Counted from the first letter of the stretch, positions 10,243-20,294 are shown. The stretch: 64,000 nt of DNA from Herbidospora yilanensis (GCF_001570565.1 NZ_BBXE01000035.1:1-64000), one strand, 5' to 3'. The notes: generated by a model from the sequence alone, not told the origin. A program made the numbers and translations.

Positions 10243-11134
10243 TCACAACCGGGCCGCCCTCTCCATCCGCTCGACGAACCCCTCCTCCGTGAGGGTGGCG
10301 TCGTCGAGCACGAAGTCGAGGAACACCTCGTCGATCCCGGCGTCGCGGAAGGCCGCGACGTCGGCCTCGATCTGCGCCCACGTGCCCTGGAAGGGCCGCC
10401 GCCGGGTTCCGGTGAAACGGACGTTGGCCCGCACGACCACCTCCGGCTCCGGCCGCCCCGCCTTCCGGGCGCTCTCGAACAGGGTCTCCCGCAGGGGCAG
10501 CAGCATCTCCAGCGGCAACCCGCCCGGGAGCCACCCGTCGGCCACCCGGCCGGCCCGTTCGATCGCGCGGGGGGGCGTACACCCCCAGATAGACGGGCGG
10601 GGAGGACGCCGGCGTCGGCTCGAAGGCCGTCTCGGGCACGGTGAAGAACTCCCCCGTGTACGCCGTCCTCCCGGCCGCCCACAACCCCCGGAGCACCGCG
10701 ACGAACTCCTCACTGCGCCGCCCCTGGCCCTCGGGTGTGTTCCCGGCCGCCTCGATCTCGTCGAGCGACCAGCCCTGCCCCAGGCCGGCCCGCAACCGGC
10801 CGCCGCTCAGCACGTCGAGCGTGGCCAGTTGCTTGGCCAGTACGACCGGATTGTGCAGCAGCATGCACAGGACGCTCGTGCCGAGCGTGATCCGCGAGGT
10901 CACGGCGGCGGCGAAGGCCAGCGTCGTGACCGGGTCGTAGGAGATCTTCATGGCCTCCGGGAGGCCGCCGTCGCGGGTGCCGGGATAGCGGCTGCGCGGC
11001 CTGACCGGGTCGAGCAGGCGTTCGCCCGCCCACAACGAGTGGTAACCGAGCGCCTCGGCCCGCCGGGCGACCGACGAGACGAAGCCGGGTGAGGCCAGCG
11101 GGCCGATGGACGGCAGGCCGAGTCCTAGTCGCAT
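10243..11134 (-). pseudogene. Luciferase-like (F420-type) monooxygenase, interrupted by a one-base frameshift
   Basis: The first part (ATG 11134, GGAAGG upstream) reads MRLGLGLPSIGPL... through SSPPVYLGVYAP, a typical LLM-class oxidoreductase N-terminal half. The matching C-terminal half (AIERAGRVADGWLPGG ... VFLDFVLDDATLTEEGF) lies in the neighbouring frame and ends at 10243. The switch falls in a run of seven G on the + strand (10569-10575); removing one base restores a continuous protein of about 296 residues, the normal family length. Without the repair the first frame runs into Arg/Gly-rich noise to 10121. The run is a classic sequencing-error site, so the gene may be intact in the organism. 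The likely cofactor is F420 or FMN. Confidence 0.8.
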
Positions 11135-11235
11135 ATCGAGAAACCTTCCACGATCACTCGCCGTTGACGCTGGACGCGGCGTACGCCGACCCCCTACGGT
11201 GCCGTGTGCCTGATGCGTCGACAGAGGGGGACACC

Positions 11236-13341
11236 GTGCGGCGGTGGGCTGCGGGGATGGTCACGGCCATGCTGGTCGCGATCGTGTGGGGGGCGCCGGC
11301 GGCGGCCCGCGCCGACGGCCCCGGGCAGGTGGCGCTCATCGGGGTGCCCGGCCTGATGTGGAGCGACGTCACCGAAAGTGACACCCCCAACCTGTGGCGG
11401 CTGGCCGGCGAGAGCGCCGTCGGGTCATTGTCGGTGAAGGCGGTCGGCACGATCACCTGCCCCTACGACGGATGGCTGACGGTGTCGGCCGGGGTCCGGT
11501 CGGCCGTCGGCTCGCGGTGCGGGCTGCCGCCCGCGCCGGTCGAGGGCACCAACCGGCTGCACGAGTTCGGCTGGTTCGCCTCCGTCGCCGGAGTGCCCAC
11601 CGCCGGATCGGTCGGCGCGCTGCCCGGCACGACGGCGATCGGTCCCGGCGCGGTGCTGGCGCTGTCCGACCGGGAGGGTTCGGTCGACCGCTACCACGCC
11701 ACGGCCGAGGAGGTCGCCGACTGGTCGGCGCCGCTGATCGCGGTCGACGTCGACACGCTGATCCGGCCCTACATCGCCGCCGACGGCAAGGTCTCCCGTG
11801 AGCCCGAGGCGCTCGCCCCGGCCGACCGCGCGGCGGCGGTCCGGCAGGCCGACGCCCAGGTGGGCGCGGTGCTGGCCAAGCTGCCCGCCACGGCGACCGT
11901 GCTGGTCGCGGGGCTGGCCGACCACGGGCCGGTCCCCCACCTGCGGGTGGCGATGATGCGGGCGCCCGGCACGACCGGCACCAGCCTGCTCGGCTCGGGC
12001 TCCACCCACCGCGACGACATGATCATCCTGCCCGACCTGACCGCGACCCTGTTCAGCGCCACCGGCCAGACCGCCGCCATCCCGCCGACGGTCATCGGGC
12101 AGCCGTTGGGCGCGGGCGAGCCGATCCCGCTCGACGAGGCCGTCGACCGGCTCAGGAACGCCGACACGGCCGGGCAGACGATCCGGAACATGGGCGGGAT
12201 CTTCTTCACCACGCTGGCCGTGCTCCAGGTGCTCTTCTACGGCGCGGCGTTCCTGCTGCTGCGCCGCCGGTCGGCGCTGGGCGTGGTCAGGGTGGCCGCC
12301 GTGGCGCTGGCCTCGATCCCGGTGTCGACCTACCTGATCAACCTGACGCCCTGGGAGACCGGCCCCGCGCCGACGCTCACCCTGGTCGGCGGGCTGGCCG
12401 CCTTCGACGTCGTGCTCACCGTGCTCGCCCTGCGCGCGGCCCGGCTCACCCGGCCGGAGAACATCCTGGCGCCGCTCATCGTCGTCGCGGGCGCCACCGC
12501 CGCCGTGCTGCTCGGCGACCTCCTCTCCGGCACGCACCTGCAGCTCAACAGCGTCATGGGCTACACGGGCGTGGTCGGGGCCCGCTACTACGGCCTGGGC
12601 AACATCCCGTTCGCGCTGCTGGCCACGGCGGTGCTGCTGGTCGCCACGGCCGTCGCCGACACGCTGGTCCGGCACGGCCGCCGGCCGCTCGCGGTCGGCC
12701 TCATCGCCGCGCTGGGCGTGTTCGCGATGATCCTCGGCGGCTGGCCCGGGGTCGGCAGCGACTTCGGCGGCGTGATCGCGTTCGTGCCCGGCATCGCGGT
12801 CGCCGCGCTCATCGTGGCCGGGCGGCGGGTGTCGATCTGGAAGCTCGGCCTGTTCTGCGTGGCCGGCGGCGTGACCGTGCTGACCATCGCCTACCTCGAC
12901 TACCGGCGCCCGCCCGGGTCGCAGACCCACCTCGGGCGGTTCGTCGGGCAGATCTTCGACGGCACGTTCTGGCCGGTCATCGCGCGCAAGCTCGACGCCA
13001 TGCTGGGCACCCTGCTCAGCCCCAACCTGATGCCCGTCGTCATCGCCGCCGTGGCGTTCCTGGTGTTCGCGGTGCTGCGGCCCGGCGCGGCGACGGCCGG
13101 GGTGCTGCCGGTGGCGTTCGAGCGGGCGCCCACACTGAAGGCCGGTCTGCTCGGCGCGCTGGTCAGCGGCGGCGTCGGCATGCTGGTGAACGACTCGGGC
13201 GCGGCCGTGTTGTCGATGGCGCTGGCCCTGGCGGTGCCGCTGGTGCTGAGCGCCGGGATCAGGGCCATCCAGCTCGACGGGGCCTCACCCGGCGACGGCG
13301 GCCGTGCGGAGGGCCCGATAGAGCAGTCGCGCGTCGCCTAG
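11236..13341 (+). CDS. Alkaline-phosphatase-superfamily-like extracellular domain fused to a polytopic membrane domain
   Basis: 701 residues from GTG 11236, which has AGGGGG five to six bases upstream; the frame is open further 5' but without a good start. A signal peptide (to ARA near residue 25) precedes a domain with phosphatase-superfamily features: GVPGLMW, a candidate Thr nucleophile in TITCPYDGW, and a metal-ligand-like GLADHGPVPH. From about residue 320 there are roughly eleven membrane segments. The product is a conserved actinobacterial hypothetical protein; a role in envelope phosphoester or glycolipid chemistry is inference. Its 3' end overlaps the convergent nurA-like gene by 57 bases, unusually long for this genome. 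Confidence 0.75.
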   Translation: MRRWAAGMVTAMLVAIVWGAPAAARADGPGQVALIGVPGLMWSDVTESDTPNLWRLAGESAVGSLSVKAVGTITCPYDGWLTVSAGVRSAVGSRCGLPPAPVEGTNRLHEFGWFASVAGVPTAGSVGALPGTTAIGPGAVLALSDREGSVDRYHATAEEVADWSAPLIAVDVDTLIRPYIAADGKVSREPEALAPADRAAAVRQADAQVGAVLAKLPATATVLVAGLADHGPVPHLRVAMMRAPGTTGTSLLGSGSTHRDDMIILPDLTATLFSATGQTAAIPPTVIGQPLGAGEPIPLDEAVDRLRNADTAGQTIRNMGGIFFTTLAVLQVLFYGAAFLLLRRRSALGVVRVAAVALASIPVSTYLINLTPWETGPAPTLTLVGGLAAFDVVLTVLALRAARLTRPENILAPLIVVAGATAAVLLGDLLSGTHLQLNSVMGYTGVVGARYYGLGNIPFALLATAVLLVATAVADTLVRHGRRPLAVGLIAALGVFAMILGGWPGVGSDFGGVIAFVPGIAVAALIVAGRRVSIWKLGLFCVAGGVTVLTIAYLDYRRPPGSQTHLGRFVGQIFDGTFWPVIARKLDAMLGTLLSPNLMPVVIAAVAFLVFAVLRPGAATAGVLPVAFERAPTLKAGLLGALVSGGVGMLVNDSGAAVLSMALALAVPLVLSAGIRAIQLDGASPGDGGRAEGPIEQSRVA

Positions 13342-14241
13342 CCGGTGGCGCAGCAGCTTCTCCAGCCCGCCGATCGGGACGAGGTTCTGCGGCGCCCTCG
13401 GGTCTTTGTAGTCGACCCCGGCCATCGGCGGCAGCGCGAGCGTGACCCGGTCGGCGAGCTCGGCGGCGTCTTCGGCCGACAGGTCGGCGCCCGCCTCGCA
13501 ACGGGCGATCCCGGCCCACGGGGCCGTCGAGATCGTGGGCAGCCGCAGATACCAGGCGTAGCGGCTCCAGTTCGTGCCCATGAAGAAGACCGGGGTGCGC
13601 TGGCCCGGCTTCAGGTCGGACACCACGGCCGACTGGGCCGGCGGCAGATAGGACGTGTGGTGGGTCTTCACGTAGCCGACCGCGTTGGGCAGATGGGTGC
13701 GCCCGCGCAGCGGCCCGTCGACCACCAGCAGCTCGTCGTGCCCGGTCTGCGCGCGATATCTCAGGGCCAGGTCGACTTCGAGCTCGGTCAGTTTCTGCTG
13801 GAGCGCCAGTGACCCGTCGTCGTCGCCGGTCACCTCATGGGAGGTGTACGTCACCGGCCCCGCCACCAGGTCGGCCACACCCTTGGCCGGGCTGAACACC
13901 CCTCTCCTGACCTCGACCGCGACGGGCTCGGCCCCCTCGCCGCACCGGACGATCCCGGCGGCGTAGGAGGCCGCGATGCCGGGCGCGGGCATGCCGCCCC
14001 CGGGGTCGTCGACCCAGACCCGGGCGTCGATCCGGCGCACGCCGTCGGCGACCAGCAGCGTCTCGGGCGCTCTCGTCGCCGCGCCGGGGGTGATCGGCCG
14101 CCACTGCAGGACGGGGATCTCGACGTCGAGGGTGAGGGCGGCGCTGCTGCCCTCCATCTCGGCCTCGAAGGCCAGGCTCGCGCCATAGCCGGGGTCCCAG
14201 GGATCGACGCTGAACCCGGGGGCGTGGTACGTGGTGGTCAC
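13285..14241 (-). CDS. nurA: NurA-like 5'-3' nuclease
   Basis: 318 residues. NurA-type RNase H-fold motifs are recognisable: an Asp in VADGVRR (D66), an acidic helix ELEVDLALR (about 154-162), VVDGPL (D175, the hallmark DG-P/S-L), and the late motifs RYAWYLRL ... WAGIARCEA and RAPQNLVPIGGLEKLLRHRLGD. NurA degrades DNA ends together with the HerA translocase. The GTG start overlaps the sbcC stop by four bases (GTGA), so it is the last gene of herA-sbcD-sbcC-nurA. The family assignment is from motifs read by eye; the operon context strongly supports it. Confidence 0.78.
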   Translation of the reverse strand: MTTTYHAPGFSVDPWDPGYGASLAFEAEMEGSSAALTLDVEIPVLQWRPITPGAATRAPETLLVADGVRRIDARVWVDDPGGGMPAPGIAASYAAGIVRCGEGAEPVAVEVRRGVFSPAKGVADLVAGPVTYTSHEVTGDDDGSLALQQKLTELEVDLALRYRAQTGHDELLVVDGPLRGRTHLPNAVGYVKTHHTSYLPPAQSAVVSDLKPGQRTPVFFMGTNWSRYAWYLRLPTISTAPWAGIARCEAGADLSAEDAAELADRVTLALPPMAGVDYKDPRAPQNLVPIGGLEKLLRHRLGDARLLYRALRTAAVAG

Positions 14242-16811
14242 CGAACCACCTTTCTGACGTGGGAGCCGGAGGCGTCGCGGGAGACCTCGAACCGGACCGG
14301 AACCCGGTCGGCCAGGGCCGGAACGTGGGTGACGACGCCGATCACGCGTTCCTGGCCGGAGGCGAGCTTTTCGAGGGTGGCGGCCACCGTGTCGAGCGTG
14401 GCCGGGTCGAGGGTGCCGAACCCCTCGTCGAGGAAGATCGAGTCGAGGCTCCGGGCGGCCGCCGCCGCGAGCCCGGCGACCTGGTCGGACAGCGCCAGCG
14501 CGAGGGCGAGGGAGGCCTGGAACGTCTCCCCGCCCGACAACGTGCGGGCGCTGCGGCGCAGCCCCGCCTCGGCGTAGTCGACGACCTCGATGTCGCCCCG
14601 GGCGCCGAGCACGAGTTCGTACTGGCCGTCGGACAGATCCTTCAGCGTCTCCGAGGCGGCCGCGACGAGCAGTTCGAGGGCCTCGGCGCAGAGCCAGCGC
14701 TCGAACTGGTTGGCCCGCAGCAGCAGGGCCAGCTCATGGGCGACCCTGGCCTCCCCCTCGTGGGCGGCGACGCGCGCGGCCAGGTCGGCGGCGCGCTCCC
14801 GCGCCTCCCTGACCCGGGCGAGCCGCTCGTCGGCCTGCGCGGCGGCGCGGGCGACCTGCTCGGCGATCCGGTCGCCGGAGTTGACCGTGACACCGTGTTC
14901 GGCGACCCGCCCGGCCAGCGCCCGGCGGGCCTCCTGCGCGCTCCCCCGGGCCTGGTCGAACCGCGCCTCGGCCGCCTCGGCCTCCTGCCGCCGCACGGCC
15001 GCCGCGTCGTCACGCCAGGCCAGCAGGGCGGTCCAGGCGGCGTGGACGTCACCGGGGTCGAGCGGCGGCGGTCCGAACGCGGCGACGGTGTCACGGGCGG
15101 CGTTGAGATCCCGCCACGCCTGCTCGGCCTTGCGCCGGGCCTCGTCGACCGCGCGGGCGGCCTGGGCGGCGACGCGGCGTGCCTCCCGGGCGTCGCGCCG
15201 GATGGCAGCGACCTTCCCGGCGGCCTGGTCGATCGCCGCGAGCAGTTCCCCGATGGCCGCGGCCCTCCCGGGGTCGGGCGGGGCGGTCGTGGCCAGCTCA
15301 CGGGCGCGGGCGGTGAGGAGCTCGGCCTTGGCCGCCAGACCGTCGTGCCGGGTGCGGGCCTGCTGCCCCTTCTCCCGGATCGCGGCGAGGCGACGTTCCG
15401 CGTCGGCCAGCTCGTCGGCCGCGGAGACGGCGTGACGGACACCGGCCCGCTGACCGGCGGACGCGGCCCGCGCCTCGGGGACGCCGCGGCCGGCGCGGGC
15501 CTGCTGACCGGCGGGCAGGTCGGAGCCGTGCGACTCGGGGCCGCCGAGACGCGCGCCGGCTCCGTGGGCGTTCTCCCCCGCGGGCAGGTCGTCCGCGGTG
15601 ACCACCTGATGGCAGACCGGGCAGGGGTCGCCCGGAGTCAGGGTGCGGGCCAGGTCGGCGGCCGTGTGGGCGATTCTCGTCTTCGTGAGGTGGCGGTCGG
15701 CTTCCTCATAGTCGCGGAAGGCGGCGGCGAGTGCCTCGGCGGCTTCGGCCAGTTGGGCGGTGACCGCGTCGGCCTCGGTCCGGGCGGCGTCGGCCTCGGC
15801 GGTGCGGCGTGCGCGGTCGGTCAGGCCGGCGAGTTCCCGCGTCAGGGCGGCCTGGTCGCCCAGGGCTTCGAGTTCGCCTTCGGCCTGCTCTTCCAGCGTG
15901 TCGAGGCGGGCCTGCTCGCCCGCCGCCGCCTCGGCCCGCTCGGTGGCGCGGCGGGCCGATTCGGCCAGGCCGGGCACCTCTCCCGGGAGCGTCAGGGCGC
16001 CGAGCTGGGACAGCGCGCGGAGCACCGTGACCCGGTCGGCGTCGGCGGCCTTGGCGGCCTCGTCGAGGGTGCCCAGTTCCTCCAGGTCGGCGCCGACCCG
16101 CTCCGACAACGCGTGGAGGGCGGCGGCGCGCTCGCGGGCGGTCTCCTCGGCCTTCTCGTCGGCGTCGTGCAGGCGGGCCAGCTCTCCCCTGGCGAACTCG
16201 GCGGCCTGGCCCTGCCTGGTCTCCTCGGCGGCGGCGGCCTTGCGGACCCGCTCGTAGACGTCGGCGTCGAGGAGCTGCACGAGCAGGTCCTGGCGGTCGC
16301 TCGGGGTGGCGTGCAGGAACTCGGCGAAGCGGCCCTGGGGCAGTACCACGCACTGGGTGAAGAACTTGTATTCCAGCCCGGTGACCTGGGCGACCTCGAC
16401 GGCGACCTGTTCGCCTTCGGCCACCGGCCGGGAGGTGGCGGTCAGCTCGATGAGGCCGGACTCGGCGGGGACCGACGGGTCGAGCAGGTCGAGCCGGGCC
16501 TCCTTGGTGCGGACGGTCCCCTTGGCGTCGCGCAGGAGGGTGCGGACGGCGGCGTAGCGGCGGCCCGAGACCTCGAAGACCAGGGCGACCTTGCCGGACG
16601 CGGCGGAGGGGGCCAGCGCGTAGGCGACCACGTTCTCCTTGCCCCATCGGGGCACGCTGCCGTAGAGGGCGAAGCAGATGGCGTCGATCACGGTGCTCTT
16701 GCCCGCGCCGGTCGCGCCGACCAGCGCGAAGTAGTCGACCTCGGCGAAGTCGACGTCGGTGGCGGCCCGGAAGCTGCCGAAGTTCTCCATGTGCAGCCGG
16801 ATGGGGCGCAT
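14238..16811 (-). CDS. sbcC: SbcC/Rad50-type SMC-like ATPase
   Basis: 857 residues. The N-terminal lobe has the Walker A GATGAGKST (about residues 32-40). Long Ala/Glu/Arg-rich coiled coils flank a zinc hook CPVC near residue 397. The C-terminal lobe has the signature LSGGETFQASLALALALSD and Walker B SIFLDEGFGTLD. It pairs with SbcD to open and trim DNA ends and hairpins. ATG 16811 overlaps the sbcD stop by one base (TGATG). It is shorter than E. coli SbcC (1048 residues) but normal for actinobacteria. Confidence 0.95.
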   Translation of the reverse strand: MRPIRLHMENFGSFRAATDVDFAEVDYFALVGATGAGKSTVIDAICFALYGSVPRWGKENVVAYALAPSAASGKVALVFEVSGRRYAAVRTLLRDAKGTVRTKEARLDLLDPSVPAESGLIELTATSRPVAEGEQVAVEVAQVTGLEYKFFTQCVVLPQGRFAEFLHATPSDRQDLLVQLLDADVYERVRKAAAAEETRQGQAAEFARGELARLHDADEKAEETARERAAALHALSERVGADLEELGTLDEAAKAADADRVTVLRALSQLGALTLPGEVPGLAESARRATERAEAAAGEQARLDTLEEQAEGELEALGDQAALTRELAGLTDRARRTAEADAARTEADAVTAQLAEAAEALAAAFRDYEEADRHLTKTRIAHTAADLARTLTPGDPCPVCHQVVTADDLPAGENAHGAGARLGGPESHGSDLPAGQQARAGRGVPEARAASAGQRAGVRHAVSAADELADAERRLAAIREKGQQARTRHDGLAAKAELLTARARELATTAPPDPGRAAAIGELLAAIDQAAGKVAAIRRDAREARRVAAQAARAVDEARRKAEQAWRDLNAARDTVAAFGPPPLDPGDVHAAWTALLAWRDDAAAVRRQEAEAAEARFDQARGSAQEARRALAGRVAEHGVTVNSGDRIAEQVARAAAQADERLARVREARERAADLAARVAAHEGEARVAHELALLLRANQFERWLCAEALELLVAAASETLKDLSDGQYELVLGARGDIEVVDYAEAGLRRSARTLSGGETFQASLALALALSDQVAGLAAAAARSLDSIFLDEGFGTLDPATLDTVAATLEKLASGQERVIGVVTHVPALADRVPVRFEVSRDASGSHVRKVVR

Positions 16812-17983
16812 CAGCGGGTCACCTCGCCGGTGACCTCGCTGGTGACCTCGTCGTGGAGGCGGTCGAAGAGGGCGCCCAGGGCCTCGACGTCCTTGCCCGA
16901 GGCGGCCAGGTATTCGCGGACGAGGTCACGCGGGCCTCTCCCCGCGCCGGTCGCCTGGCGTCTGCGCACGCTCGCGGGCCGGAAGTCGGGATGCAGGTCG
17001 ACCTGGAGCGCCCCCGGCAGCAGCTCCCTCACGGTGTCGGCCAGCCCCGCCCGGGGCTTCTCGGCCACGACCACCCGCAGCCAGGCGTCGCCCAGGTCGG
17101 CGGCCATCGCCTCCAGCCGGTCGAGACTCCCGGTGACGGTCGTCAGCACCTTCGGCTTCTCCAGGGCCACCTCGCGCACCTTCGCCGGCACGCCCGGCTC
17201 GACCTCGACGATCAGCACGCCGGGCTGGTTCTTCTCCTCTCCGAAGTCGACGGCGATGGGCGAGCCGCTGTACCAGATCGGGCACGGCCCCGGCATCTGC
17301 TGCCGCCGGTGGAGGTGCCCCAGCGCGGCGTATTGGGCGGTGGGGGGGAACGCGGTCGACTCGAAGTAGTAGGAGAAGATCGTCTGGGCCTGGCGTTCGC
17401 CGCCGCCCATCTTCCCGCCGGGGAGGGTGCCGTGGGTGGTCACCAGATTGACGGTGTCGCCGGTGAAACCGCCCGTCAGCGCCTCGGCGAGGCGGCCGAA
17501 GCGGTCGGCGTAACTGCGGTTGTGCTCGGCCGTCGTCTCGGAGATCAGCTCGGCGGCCCGCACCACGTGGCGGTGGGACAGGAACGGCAGCACCGCGCAC
17601 TTGACCGGTTCGCCGGTCCGGGCGGTGAACTCGATCAGGCCGCCCTGGTCGGGCCGCCGGAACAACCCCGACACGTGGATGCCCAACGCCCCCAGCACCG
17701 GCCGGTAGACCTCCAGGAGCTGCGCGTTGTCGTGGTTGCCGGCCAGCACGACCACCTCGCGGCCCCCCTCGCGCAACTGCATCAGCGCGTTGACGACCAG
17801 GCCCTGCGACTCGGGCGTGGGCGCCGAGGTGTCGAACAGGTCGCCGGCGACCAGCACCAGGTCGACGTCTTCGCGGCGGGCCACGCCCACCAGCTCCCAG
17901 AGCACCGCGCGGTGCTCGTCGTGGCGCCCCCGGCCCTTGAGGACCTTGCCGACGTGCCAGTCGGCCGTGTGCAGGATCTTCAT
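16811..17983 (-). CDS. sbcD: SbcD/Mre11-type exonuclease
   Basis: 390 residues. It shows the full phosphoesterase motif set: TADWHVG (about 7-13), VAGDLFD (about 45-51), LAGNHDN, TTHGTLPG and GHLHRRQ, which bind the two manganese ions of Mre11/SbcD nucleases. A C-terminal capping region ends in a run rich in VTSEVTGEV. It forms the nuclease of the SbcCD complex. It lies 10 bases after the herA-like gene and shares TGATG with sbcC. Confidence 0.95.
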   Translation of the reverse strand: MKILHTADWHVGKVLKGRGRHDEHRAVLWELVGVARREDVDLVLVAGDLFDTSAPTPESQGLVVNALMQLREGGREVVVLAGNHDNAQLLEVYRPVLGALGIHVSGLFRRPDQGGLIEFTARTGEPVKCAVLPFLSHRHVVRAAELISETTAEHNRSYADRFGRLAEALTGGFTGDTVNLVTTHGTLPGGKMGGGERQAQTIFSYYFESTAFPPTAQYAALGHLHRRQQMPGPCPIWYSGSPIAVDFGEEKNQPGVLIVEVEPGVPAKVREVALEKPKVLTTVTGSLDRLEAMAADLGDAWLRVVVAEKPRAGLADTVRELLPGALQVDLHPDFRPASVRRRQATGAGRGPRDLVREYLAASGKDVEALGALFDRLHDEVTSEVTGEVTR

Positions 17984-17993
17984 GGCACGCCTC

Positions 17994-19733
17994 TCAGAAC
18001 GGGGGGATGTCGTCTTCGGGGGCGGGCAGCCCGGCGAACGGATCTCTGTCGAGACGCGTGGTGACCGGGGCCGCCCCGGCCTCGGAAGGCCGGGTCGCCC
18101 AGGCGGGGAACGGGAAGTTCACGGCCAGCGGCACGGGGATCTCGGGCTGGACGGCGAACATGGTGCCCGGTTTGGCGATGGTGGCCCGGTCGCGGGCGGT
18201 GCCGGTCAGCCAGCCGTATTCCGACCGGGTGGCCTCGGCGGGGTCGAGCCGCCCGGCGATGCGGACCGCGCAGTTGGCGACGATGCGCCGCTCCACCTCG
18301 GAGGCGGTCTGCTGGGCCCCGATGAGGATGACGCCGAGCGAGCGGCCGCGCTCGGCGACGTCGAGCAGGATCTCCTTGATCGGCGAGTCGCCGTCGCGGG
18401 GGGCGTACTTGTTGAGCTCGTCGAGGACCACGAAGAGCAGGGGCCGGGCCGAGCCCGACAACTCCTTGCGGGCGAACTCGCCGCGCAGCACCACGCCGAC
18501 CACGAACCGCTGGGCGCGTTCGGGCAGGTTGTGCAGGTCGACGATGGTGACCTGGGCGTCGGAGACGCCGATGGAGTGGGGCCGCCCGGCCGGGAGGTCG
18601 CCGCGCACGATCGGGGTGAGCGACCTGATCGAGCTGCGCAGCCGCCGCAGGAACGCGTTGACCGTGCCGAGCGAGGCCGGGAAGCCGGTCCAGGCGGCCC
18701 GGCTCGACTCGTCGGCCAGCCGTTCGTCGATCAGGTCGACGAGCTGGGGGTAGGTGCGGCACTCGACGTCGTCGACCTTGACCGCGCCCGAGTCGCCCAG
18801 CGGCTCGGCCAGCACCTTCAGCCGCGCCGCGACCTGGCCGATCAGCAGGCTGTACTGCGCCTTCTCGTCGTCGGCGTCGGCGAACACGTAGCGGAGGAGC
18901 TCGGCGTCGCAGAACTCGGCCAGCGTCCAGTAGAAGGAGCTGACGCCCTTGGTGCGGGCCGTGACGTGGGGCACGCCGTGGACGTCGCCGGGCCTCGGCG
19001 GCGCGAACACGTGGACGCTGCGGAACGGCTGGGCGGGCAGCCCGAGCGTGGCGTAGGCGGCGCGGGCGGTGTCGTCGATCCGGGTGTTGGCGTGGTCGAG
19101 GAACAGCAGGTCCTCGCCCTTGACTGAGAAGATCAGCGCCTTGGTGTTGGCCGCCTCGGGCCCCAGCACGCCGGAGTTGAACACCGAATAGAGCAGGAAC
19201 GTCGCGAACGAGGTCTTGGTCGCCACGCCCGACACCCCGGAGATCGACACGTGGGCGCCGCGGGTGCCGTCGAGGAAGTCGAAGTTGAGGAAGGCCGGTT
19301 CGCCGTCGCGGCCGAGGCCCATCGGCACCCGGCGCTCCATCACGTCGAAGTAGAGCGCCTGGTCGCGGTCGGCCCCCTTGGCCCGGAACGCCGGCGCCCC
19401 CGGCAGCGGCGGCACGAACACCTCGGGCTCGACCCGGGTGACCCGCACCTCCGCGACCTCGACGACGGCCGCCGGCAGCGCGCCCTCGGAGATCAGGAAC
19501 ACGTCGGAGTCGTAGGCCGCGCCCTCGTGCCGGGCCTCGACGTGGGTGACCACCCCGGCGACCAGCACCGGCCCGTGGCCCGGCACCTCGCGCCGCGTCA
19601 CCACCACCTCGTCGAGCTGCACGACCTTTCCCGGCTCCAGGCCGATCCAGAACGACAGGGGCGAGGCGGACTGTGTGCCCAGCACACGGCCGACAGCCTC
19701 CCCAGCAGGGGCACCAGAGAACCCATCCGTCAC
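17994..19733 (-). CDS. herA: HerA-like hexameric DNA translocase
   Basis: 579 residues. An N-terminal HAS-barrel (about residues 10-110: GRVLGTQSASPLSFWIGLEP ... VAGVVTHVEA) precedes a FtsK/HerA-class ATPase with Walker A GVSGVATKTS (about 163-172) and Walker B FVVLDELNKYAP (near 435). A conserved GAQQTASEVERRI (sensor/arginine region) follows. HerA translocates DNA into NurA and works with Mre11-Rad50 in end resection. It starts with GTG 19733, without a strong SD. It is the first gene of the four-gene block and lies 10 bases before sbcD. Confidence 0.88.
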   Translation of the reverse strand: MTDGFSGAPAGEAVGRVLGTQSASPLSFWIGLEPGKVVQLDEVVVTRREVPGHGPVLVAGVVTHVEARHEGAAYDSDVFLISEGALPAAVVEVAEVRVTRVEPEVFVPPLPGAPAFRAKGADRDQALYFDVMERRVPMGLGRDGEPAFLNFDFLDGTRGAHVSISGVSGVATKTSFATFLLYSVFNSGVLGPEAANTKALIFSVKGEDLLFLDHANTRIDDTARAAYATLGLPAQPFRSVHVFAPPRPGDVHGVPHVTARTKGVSSFYWTLAEFCDAELLRYVFADADDEKAQYSLLIGQVAARLKVLAEPLGDSGAVKVDDVECRTYPQLVDLIDERLADESSRAAWTGFPASLGTVNAFLRRLRSSIRSLTPIVRGDLPAGRPHSIGVSDAQVTIVDLHNLPERAQRFVVGVVLRGEFARKELSGSARPLLFVVLDELNKYAPRDGDSPIKEILLDVAERGRSLGVILIGAQQTASEVERRIVANCAVRIAGRLDPAEATRSEYGWLTGTARDRATIAKPGTMFAVQPEIPVPLAVNFPFPAWATRPSEAGAAPVTTRLDRDPFAGLPAPEDDIPPF

Positions 19734-19754
19734 CCGAGGCAGGGTAGTGCAGCC

Positions 19755-20294
19755 TTACGACGTTTTCTCGGGCCATGCCCGCGCGAGCAACTCCCGGGTG
19801 TCCCGGAGCAACTGTGGTAGGACGCGCGTGTGCCCGACGATCGGCATGAAGTTGGTGTCGCCGCCCCACCGGGGCACGACGTGCTGGTGGAGATGGGCGG
19901 CGATGCCCGCGCCCGCGACGTGGCCGAGGTTCATCCCGACGTTGAACCCCTGCGCCCCGCTCGCCTCCCGCAGCGCGACGAGCGCCTTCTGGGTGAACTC
20001 GGCCAGCTCGGCCGTCTCGGCGGCGTCGAGGTCGGTGTAGTCGGGCACGTGCCGGTAGGGGCAGACCATCAGGTGGCCGGAGTTGTACGGATAGAGGTTC
20101 AGGACCGCGTACACGACCTCGCCCCGGGCCACGATGAGCCCGTCGGCGTCGTCCATCTTCGGGATCTCGCAGAACGGGCAGCCGTCGCCGGAACCCGGCC
20201 CGGTCGGCTTGTTCTCCCCCTTGATGTACGCCATCCGGTGCGGCGTCCAGAGCCGTCCGAATGCGTCGGGCACGTCTGTCATGTCGGCCAGCAT
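19755..20294 (-). CDS. HIT-family nucleotide hydrolase/phosphorylase (Ap4A phosphorylase-like)
   Basis: 179 residues. The HIT triad HLHQHVV (HxHxHxx) is near residue 138, and a CPFC pair near residue 39 fits the zinc-site type of HIT proteins. The C-terminal WGGDTNFMPI is typical of actinobacterial members. The closest known relative by pattern is Mycobacterium Rv2613c, an Ap4A phosphorylase, which also lies next to thrS, as here (with Asp23 and MarR genes between). Start may be ATG 20294 or ATG 20282; neither has a good SD. It probably clears dinucleoside polyphosphates, including those made by aminoacyl-tRNA synthetases. Confidence 0.88.
   Translation of the reverse strand: MLADMTDVPDAFGRLWTPHRMAYIKGENKPTGPGSGDGCPFCEIPKMDDADGLIVARGEVVYAVLNLYPYNSGHLMVCPYRHVPDYTDLDAAETAELAEFTQKALVALREASGAQGFNVGMNLGHVAGAGIAAHLHQHVVPRWGGDTNFMPIVGHTRVLPQLLRDTRELLARAWPEKTS

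Follow-up and report, generated by a model that had tools for sequence, protein, structure and literature searches.

In archaea such as Sulfolobus and Pyrococcus, HerA, Mre11, Rad50 and NurA are encoded together in one operon. In Deinococcus radiodurans, HerA and NurA (structure 7F6D) form a 6:2 complex that performs 5'-end resection (PMC9960219), with nurA and herA not clustered with the genes for the Mre11 and Rad50 homologues (PMC8708640). A HepA (HerA)-SbcD-SbcC cluster has been reported in Oceanithermus profundus, a member of the Thermales, from gene context only (PMC5448004), and HerA-NurA has already been mentioned in Actinobacteria (PMC8708640); the literature searched on actinomycete HerA and SbcCD yielded nothing further. 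The subject here is a four-gene cassette, herA-sbcD-sbcC-nurA, in a 64,000-nucleotide stretch of the soil actinomycete Herbidospora yilanensis (NZ_BBXE01000035.1:1-64000; the window). This operon most probably encodes a bacterial double-strand-break end resection machine of the HerA-NurA type, equipped with an SbcCD (bacterial Mre11-Rad50) pair of its own.

The cassette resembles the archaeal operon in uniting the same four functions, but its proteins belong to bacterial branches and archaeal NurA is matched only by fold. A preliminary description of this DNA had called the pathway archaeal-type, which suits the gene grouping and not the proteins: HerA and NurA are of Deinococcus type, and SbcD and SbcC score as bacterial rather than archaeal. 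Its premise that HerA-NurA-Mre11-Rad50 is the archaeal machine and SbcCD alone the usual bacterial form needs qualifying, as HerA-NurA has been published from bacteria, Actinobacteria included (PMC8708640, PMC9960219). Likeness to D. radiodurans extends to the HerA and NurA families, the SGVATKTS Walker A motif, the catalytic and translocation residues and the predicted NurA fold. The hosts differ in that AdnAB-like enzymes are present here, while RecBCD and AddAB are reportedly missing from the Deinococcus-Thermus phylum (PMC9960219). In the Oceanithermus cluster too, going by its published description, the genes for SbcD and SbcC lie downstream of one for a bacterial HerA. Given the reports of HerA-NurA in Actinobacteria and of HerA-SbcD-SbcC in Oceanithermus, the cassette joins known systems; HerA-NurA in Actinobacteria is itself known, and no description of the movable block and promoter pattern presented below was found in the searched literature.

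Identity of the cassette proteins

HerA matches D. radiodurans HerA (drHerA; 7f6d_B) over nearly its full length (phmmer E=2.9e-139, residues 5-552), with no Pfam family matched at E 1 or better. Its Walker A motif, GVSGVATKTS (residues 166-175), looks odd in carrying T at the usual G before the lysine, and is identical in drHerA, where this lysine (K175) touches the ADP phosphate (PMC9960219). Equivalents of drHerA K175/T176, D220, D487/E488, R495 and R552 are all present by alignment, of which D220, D487/E488, R495 and R552 matter for ATPase activity and translocation (PMC9960219); in drHerA, mutants of K175, D487/E488, R495 and R552 have lost activity. Judged by sequence, the herA product is a bacterial-type HerA translocase, for which a hexamer and a 6:2 complex with NurA would be expected by analogy.

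The product of the last gene scores 17.3 bits (E 0.0034) against the Pfam NurA profile, below the curated cut-off of 21 bits, and would therefore be overlooked by a plain Pfam scan; among 40 orthologues, the profile reaches E<=0.001 in seven (best 8e-6). NCBIfam models did not decide the assignment either. Relationship is clearer to D. radiodurans NurA (drNurA), matched at E=1.9e-21 by the sequence alone and at 1.2e-40 once a 40-row profile is used, as well as to Thermotoga NurA (1zup), matched at 2.7e-9. The RNase H-like NurA fold, on which the preliminary description had staked its assignment, is present in an AlphaFold2 model (predicted local distance difference test, pLDDT, 88.1; predicted template modelling score, pTM, 0.86), which superposes on 1zup with Z 23.4 (266 residues, root mean square deviation, rmsd, 3.0) and on the Deinococcus protein (7f6d_G) with Z 22.6 (283 residues, rmsd 2.9). 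Archaeal NurA structures follow at Z 14.0 (2ygk) and 11.3 (3tai); TdpB is matched at Z 14.4, and the best match outside NurA and TdpB is EndoV (Z 11.6). In drNurA, each of the substitutions D53A, K201A and R309A abolishes nuclease activity (PMC9960219). The equivalents are D66, K192 and R282, a mapping that assumes a 20-residue offset between the numbering of the paper and the PDB chain, read from the alignment and consistent for all three. These residues and D175, the aspartate of the DGP motif (VVDGPL, 173-178; ELEVDLAL starts at 153), are invariant in 40/40 actinobacterial sequences. W15 is invariant as well and may answer, by position only because the region lies outside the alignment, to drNurA W8, which adjoins the strand-splitting pin. 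The gene thus encodes a NurA of bacterial type, a predicted nuclease for which Mn-dependent 5'-3' activity together with HerA would be expected.

SbcD scores 171.7 bits against TIGR00619 (E=2.5e-50, cut-off 77.65) and carries the motifs HTADWHVG, AGDLFD, AGNHD and GHLH. SbcC scores 240.3 bits against TIGR00618 (E=3.9e-71, cut-off 478.5), similar to a second SbcC of the host (241.5), and has a Walker A motif at 32-40, the hook CPVC at 397-400, the signature LSGGE at 758 and the Walker B motif SIFLDEGFG at 791. The best archaeal models score far lower, Mre11 with 49.6 bits against 171.7 for SbcD and Rad50 with 64.8 against 240.3 for SbcC.

The presence of TdpAB among the fold matches raises the alternative of an anti-phage system, in which HerA and a NurA-like nuclease would destroy foreign DNA (compare TdpAB and HerA-Sir2-type systems) with SbcCD as sensor. 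HerA and SbcC are also weakly similar to the PADLOC models HerA, mad8 and mad3. These matches are partial and low, with none for NurA, and TdpAB lies far below the repair NurAs (Z 22-23).

The preliminary description is borne out in its four minus-strand open reading frames (ORFs), which lie at 13285-19733, in the motifs GVSGVATKTS, CPVC, VVDGPL and ELEVDLAL(R), all located in the respective proteins, and in the naming of the four genes, which agrees with homology, the NurA fold, the catalytic residues and the conservation of the block. The genes are tightly joined, with a 10-nucleotide gap between herA and sbcD, a 1-nucleotide overlap of sbcD and sbcC (TGATG) and a 4-nucleotide overlap of sbcC and nurA (GTGA), the two overlaps being those already noted. 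Coordinates are collected in Table 1.

Table 1. Cassette genes, candidate promoter and flanking genes, in window coordinates
Feature	Position	Strand	Description
herA	17994..19733	-	579 amino acids, GTG start; presumed hexameric double-stranded DNA translocase/ATPase, HAS-barrel and RecA/FtsK-like domain, Deinococcus type
sbcD (bacterial Mre11)	16811..17983	-	390 amino acids, ATG start; calcineurin-like nuclease; PF00149 and TIGR00619
sbcC (bacterial Rad50)	14238..16811	-	857 amino acids (short), ATG start, CPVC zinc hook; PF13476, PF13558, TIGR00618
nurA	13285..14241	-	318 amino acids, GTG start; predicted RNase H-fold nuclease, bacterial type
Candidate promoter	19741..19763	-	RecA-NDp/PafBC spacing, GTCG-N11-TANNNT (ACGTCGTAAGGCTGCACTACCCT); ends 7 nt before herA GTG
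HIT-domain gene	19755..20294	-	Outside cassette, marks insertion site; PF01230 E=1.3e-13
Convergent membrane-protein gene	11089..13341	+	Outside cassette, marks insertion site

The 3' ends of nurA and the convergent membrane-protein gene overlap by 57 nucleotides (13285-13341).

Conservation and relocation of the block

HerA searches yielded 80 named actinobacterial loci, and every one of them that shows all four genes has the order HerA-SbcD-SbcC-NurA; the nurA ORF is complete in 63, and most of the other loci run off the contig. A phylum sample of 296 genomes contains HerA in 83, NurA in 80 and both in 74 (Fisher p=7e-52, which ignores relatedness). SbcD adjoins HerA downstream on the same strand in 58/83 genomes, and NurA takes one of two places, after SbcC (HerA-SbcD-SbcC-NurA) in 18 or ahead of HerA (NurA-HerA-SbcD-SbcC) in 50. 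Even in a distant family (f19), whose HerA is ~30% identical, the four genes lie within 13 kb in the two genomes examined (L118, L119). HerA-SbcCD-NurA is a compact conserved block common to many actinobacteria. This shows the archaeal-style grouping of HerA, NurA, Mre11 and Rad50 to be common across a large phylum of bacteria, where it relocates as a single block and coexists with AdnAB and ordinary SbcCD. A chance neighbourhood of four unrelated genes is scarcely credible given order and strand conserved across families in two arrangements, the translational overlaps and the relocation of the block as a whole.

This relocation is apparent from the flanks. Herbidospora and Acrocarpospora have the block between the HIT-domain gene, itself downstream of the threonyl-tRNA synthetase (ThrRS) gene, and the convergent membrane-protein gene. 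The two flanking genes directly adjoin each other in 23 relatives from the same order (L155-L178, compared with window positions 11089-20294), and in some of the genomes with this empty site the cassette sits elsewhere (G307, G344, G358, G387). The four genes thus stay together while their place changes, indicating that they move as a unit. Within the family, HerA (~79-82% identity) is conserved almost as strongly as the HIT gene (82-86%), which speaks for old inheritance with relocation and loss more than for recent import or frequent exchange. Patchy distribution and block-wise relocation would also suit an anti-phage system, but these identities fit old inheritance over frequent exchange, the flanks are housekeeping genes (ThrRS, HIT) and the promoter of the relatives is of DNA-damage type; an anti-phage role is on balance improbable.

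The proposition that all cassette SbcCD form one clade was not borne out: the SbcD tree needs four changes between cassette and stand-alone rows, at least two of them forced by well-supported branches. The clade is broken by two deep rows from f19 and by a mixed group with three members, so there is a dedicated SbcD branch for most cassettes, this one included, rather than for all.

Promoter upstream of herA

The pattern TTGTCRGTG-N8-TANNNT, taken here to be the consensus of the RecA-NDp/PafBC DNA-damage promoter, is present in 14 full copies in the host genome, and its reversal in none. Scanning ~130 nucleotides upstream of herA in 81 loci revealed TGTCR-N11-[TC]ANNNT in 46, against 0.45 expected. 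Spacing is strict, with 0 loci at 6-10, 12, 13 or 15 nucleotides and five at 14, and the N11 form, with 23 distinct spacer sequences, is spread over 11/24 genera and four families. Across the 81 loci, the number with a motif of RecA-NDp/PafBC spacing can be put at 46-52. The same motif is found upstream of neither sbcD nor nurA, and upstream of sbcC in 1/67 loci. LexA-type SOS boxes (GAACN4GTTC, one mismatch) are at chance level in the window (24 against 20 expected), and a perfect LexA box lies upstream of herA in only 1/81 loci. The N11 form has the arrangement of the RecA-NDp/PafBC promoter, so that DNA damage is likely to induce the cassette in many relatives.

PafBC is a regulator activated by single-stranded DNA (PMC8223512, PMC11804915). 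Induction would proceed through PafBC, a motif for which is carried by relatives. Since the product of resection is itself single-stranded DNA, the module might in turn stimulate its own regulator in a positive feedback loop.

Proposed mechanism and place among the host repair enzymes

By analogy with D. radiodurans, on which catalysis and complex formation by HerA-NurA are modelled, the four products may act in sequence. SbcC-SbcD would recognize and open a blocked or fresh DNA end; a HerA hexamer would be loaded on this end and pump duplex DNA into a NurA dimer; and the dimer would split the strands and cut the 5' strand, so that a 3' single strand remains for RecA. Cooperation of HerA-NurA with the cassette SbcCD is presumed in this scheme.

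Several observations weigh against break resection as the function. When herA or nurA is deleted in D. radiodurans or Thermus, damage resistance changes only modestly or even in the contrary direction (PMC9960219). HerA is patchy, occurring in 45/201 genomes of the order, so the cassette is dispensable. The residues through which drHerA contacts NurA are only partly kept, with one of the three positions of the acidic patch D78/E80/D81 retained by alignment. Finally, the window copy of the promoter is weak, agreeing at 4/9 positions of the 5' half and keeping only GTCG, the exact spacing and TACCCT (TANNNT); alone it would prove nothing.

The weak repair phenotype of the Deinococcus and Thermus mutants, together with the AdnAB and second SbcCD of the host, would suit a cassette that mainly processes DNA ends of other kinds, at stalled forks or hairpins or in chromosome-end or conjugative DNA, with general break resection left to AdnAB. 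This is rather unlikely, since the closest studied homologue performs 5'-end resection biochemically (PMC9960219), and resection of double-strand breaks is preferred.

Among named organisms, Herbidospora species are closest to the host (genome 7.85 Mb), and its HerA is 99% identical to that of H. solisilvae. The genome encodes an AdnAB-like pair of neighbouring proteins, both of which combine a UvrD helicase domain with a PDDEXK nuclease domain, as well as a second, separate SbcD-SbcC pair; RecC was sought in this genome and not matched. The cassette therefore works alongside these enzymes, so that of the earlier suggestion of a pathway alongside or instead of AdnAB/RecBCD, only the former part applies to this host. 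Many f19 genomes have no PDDEXK_1 match, and several such genomes in the phylum sample carry HerA or NurA, which makes replacement of AdnAB possible there, though this is only a lead.

More tentatively, the actinobacterial block may form a resection module that is self-contained and able to relocate, is induced by damage under PafBC control with positive feedback, and brings a short-armed SbcCD of its own, perhaps serving as the main resection machine in some lineages without AdnAB-like nucleases. Cooperation between HerA-NurA and SbcCD has so far been studied mainly in hyperthermophiles and Deinococcus, and tractable mesophiles such as Micromonospora, Nonomuraea and Herbidospora open it to genetics; the promoter pattern offers the concrete prediction that the cassette is induced by DNA damage.

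The second SbcCD of the host (C14), a stand-alone actinobacterial pair, belongs to the same SbcD and SbcC families as the cassette pair but falls on a separate branch of the SbcD tree and has an SbcC of 1266 rather than 857 amino acids; cassette SbcC proteins are generally short (median ~824 amino acids). It also has its own perfect RecA-NDp motif, 8 nucleotides before the SbcD start (C14:204465-204487; operon L107:4497-9385), a distance that suggests a leaderless damage-inducible transcript.

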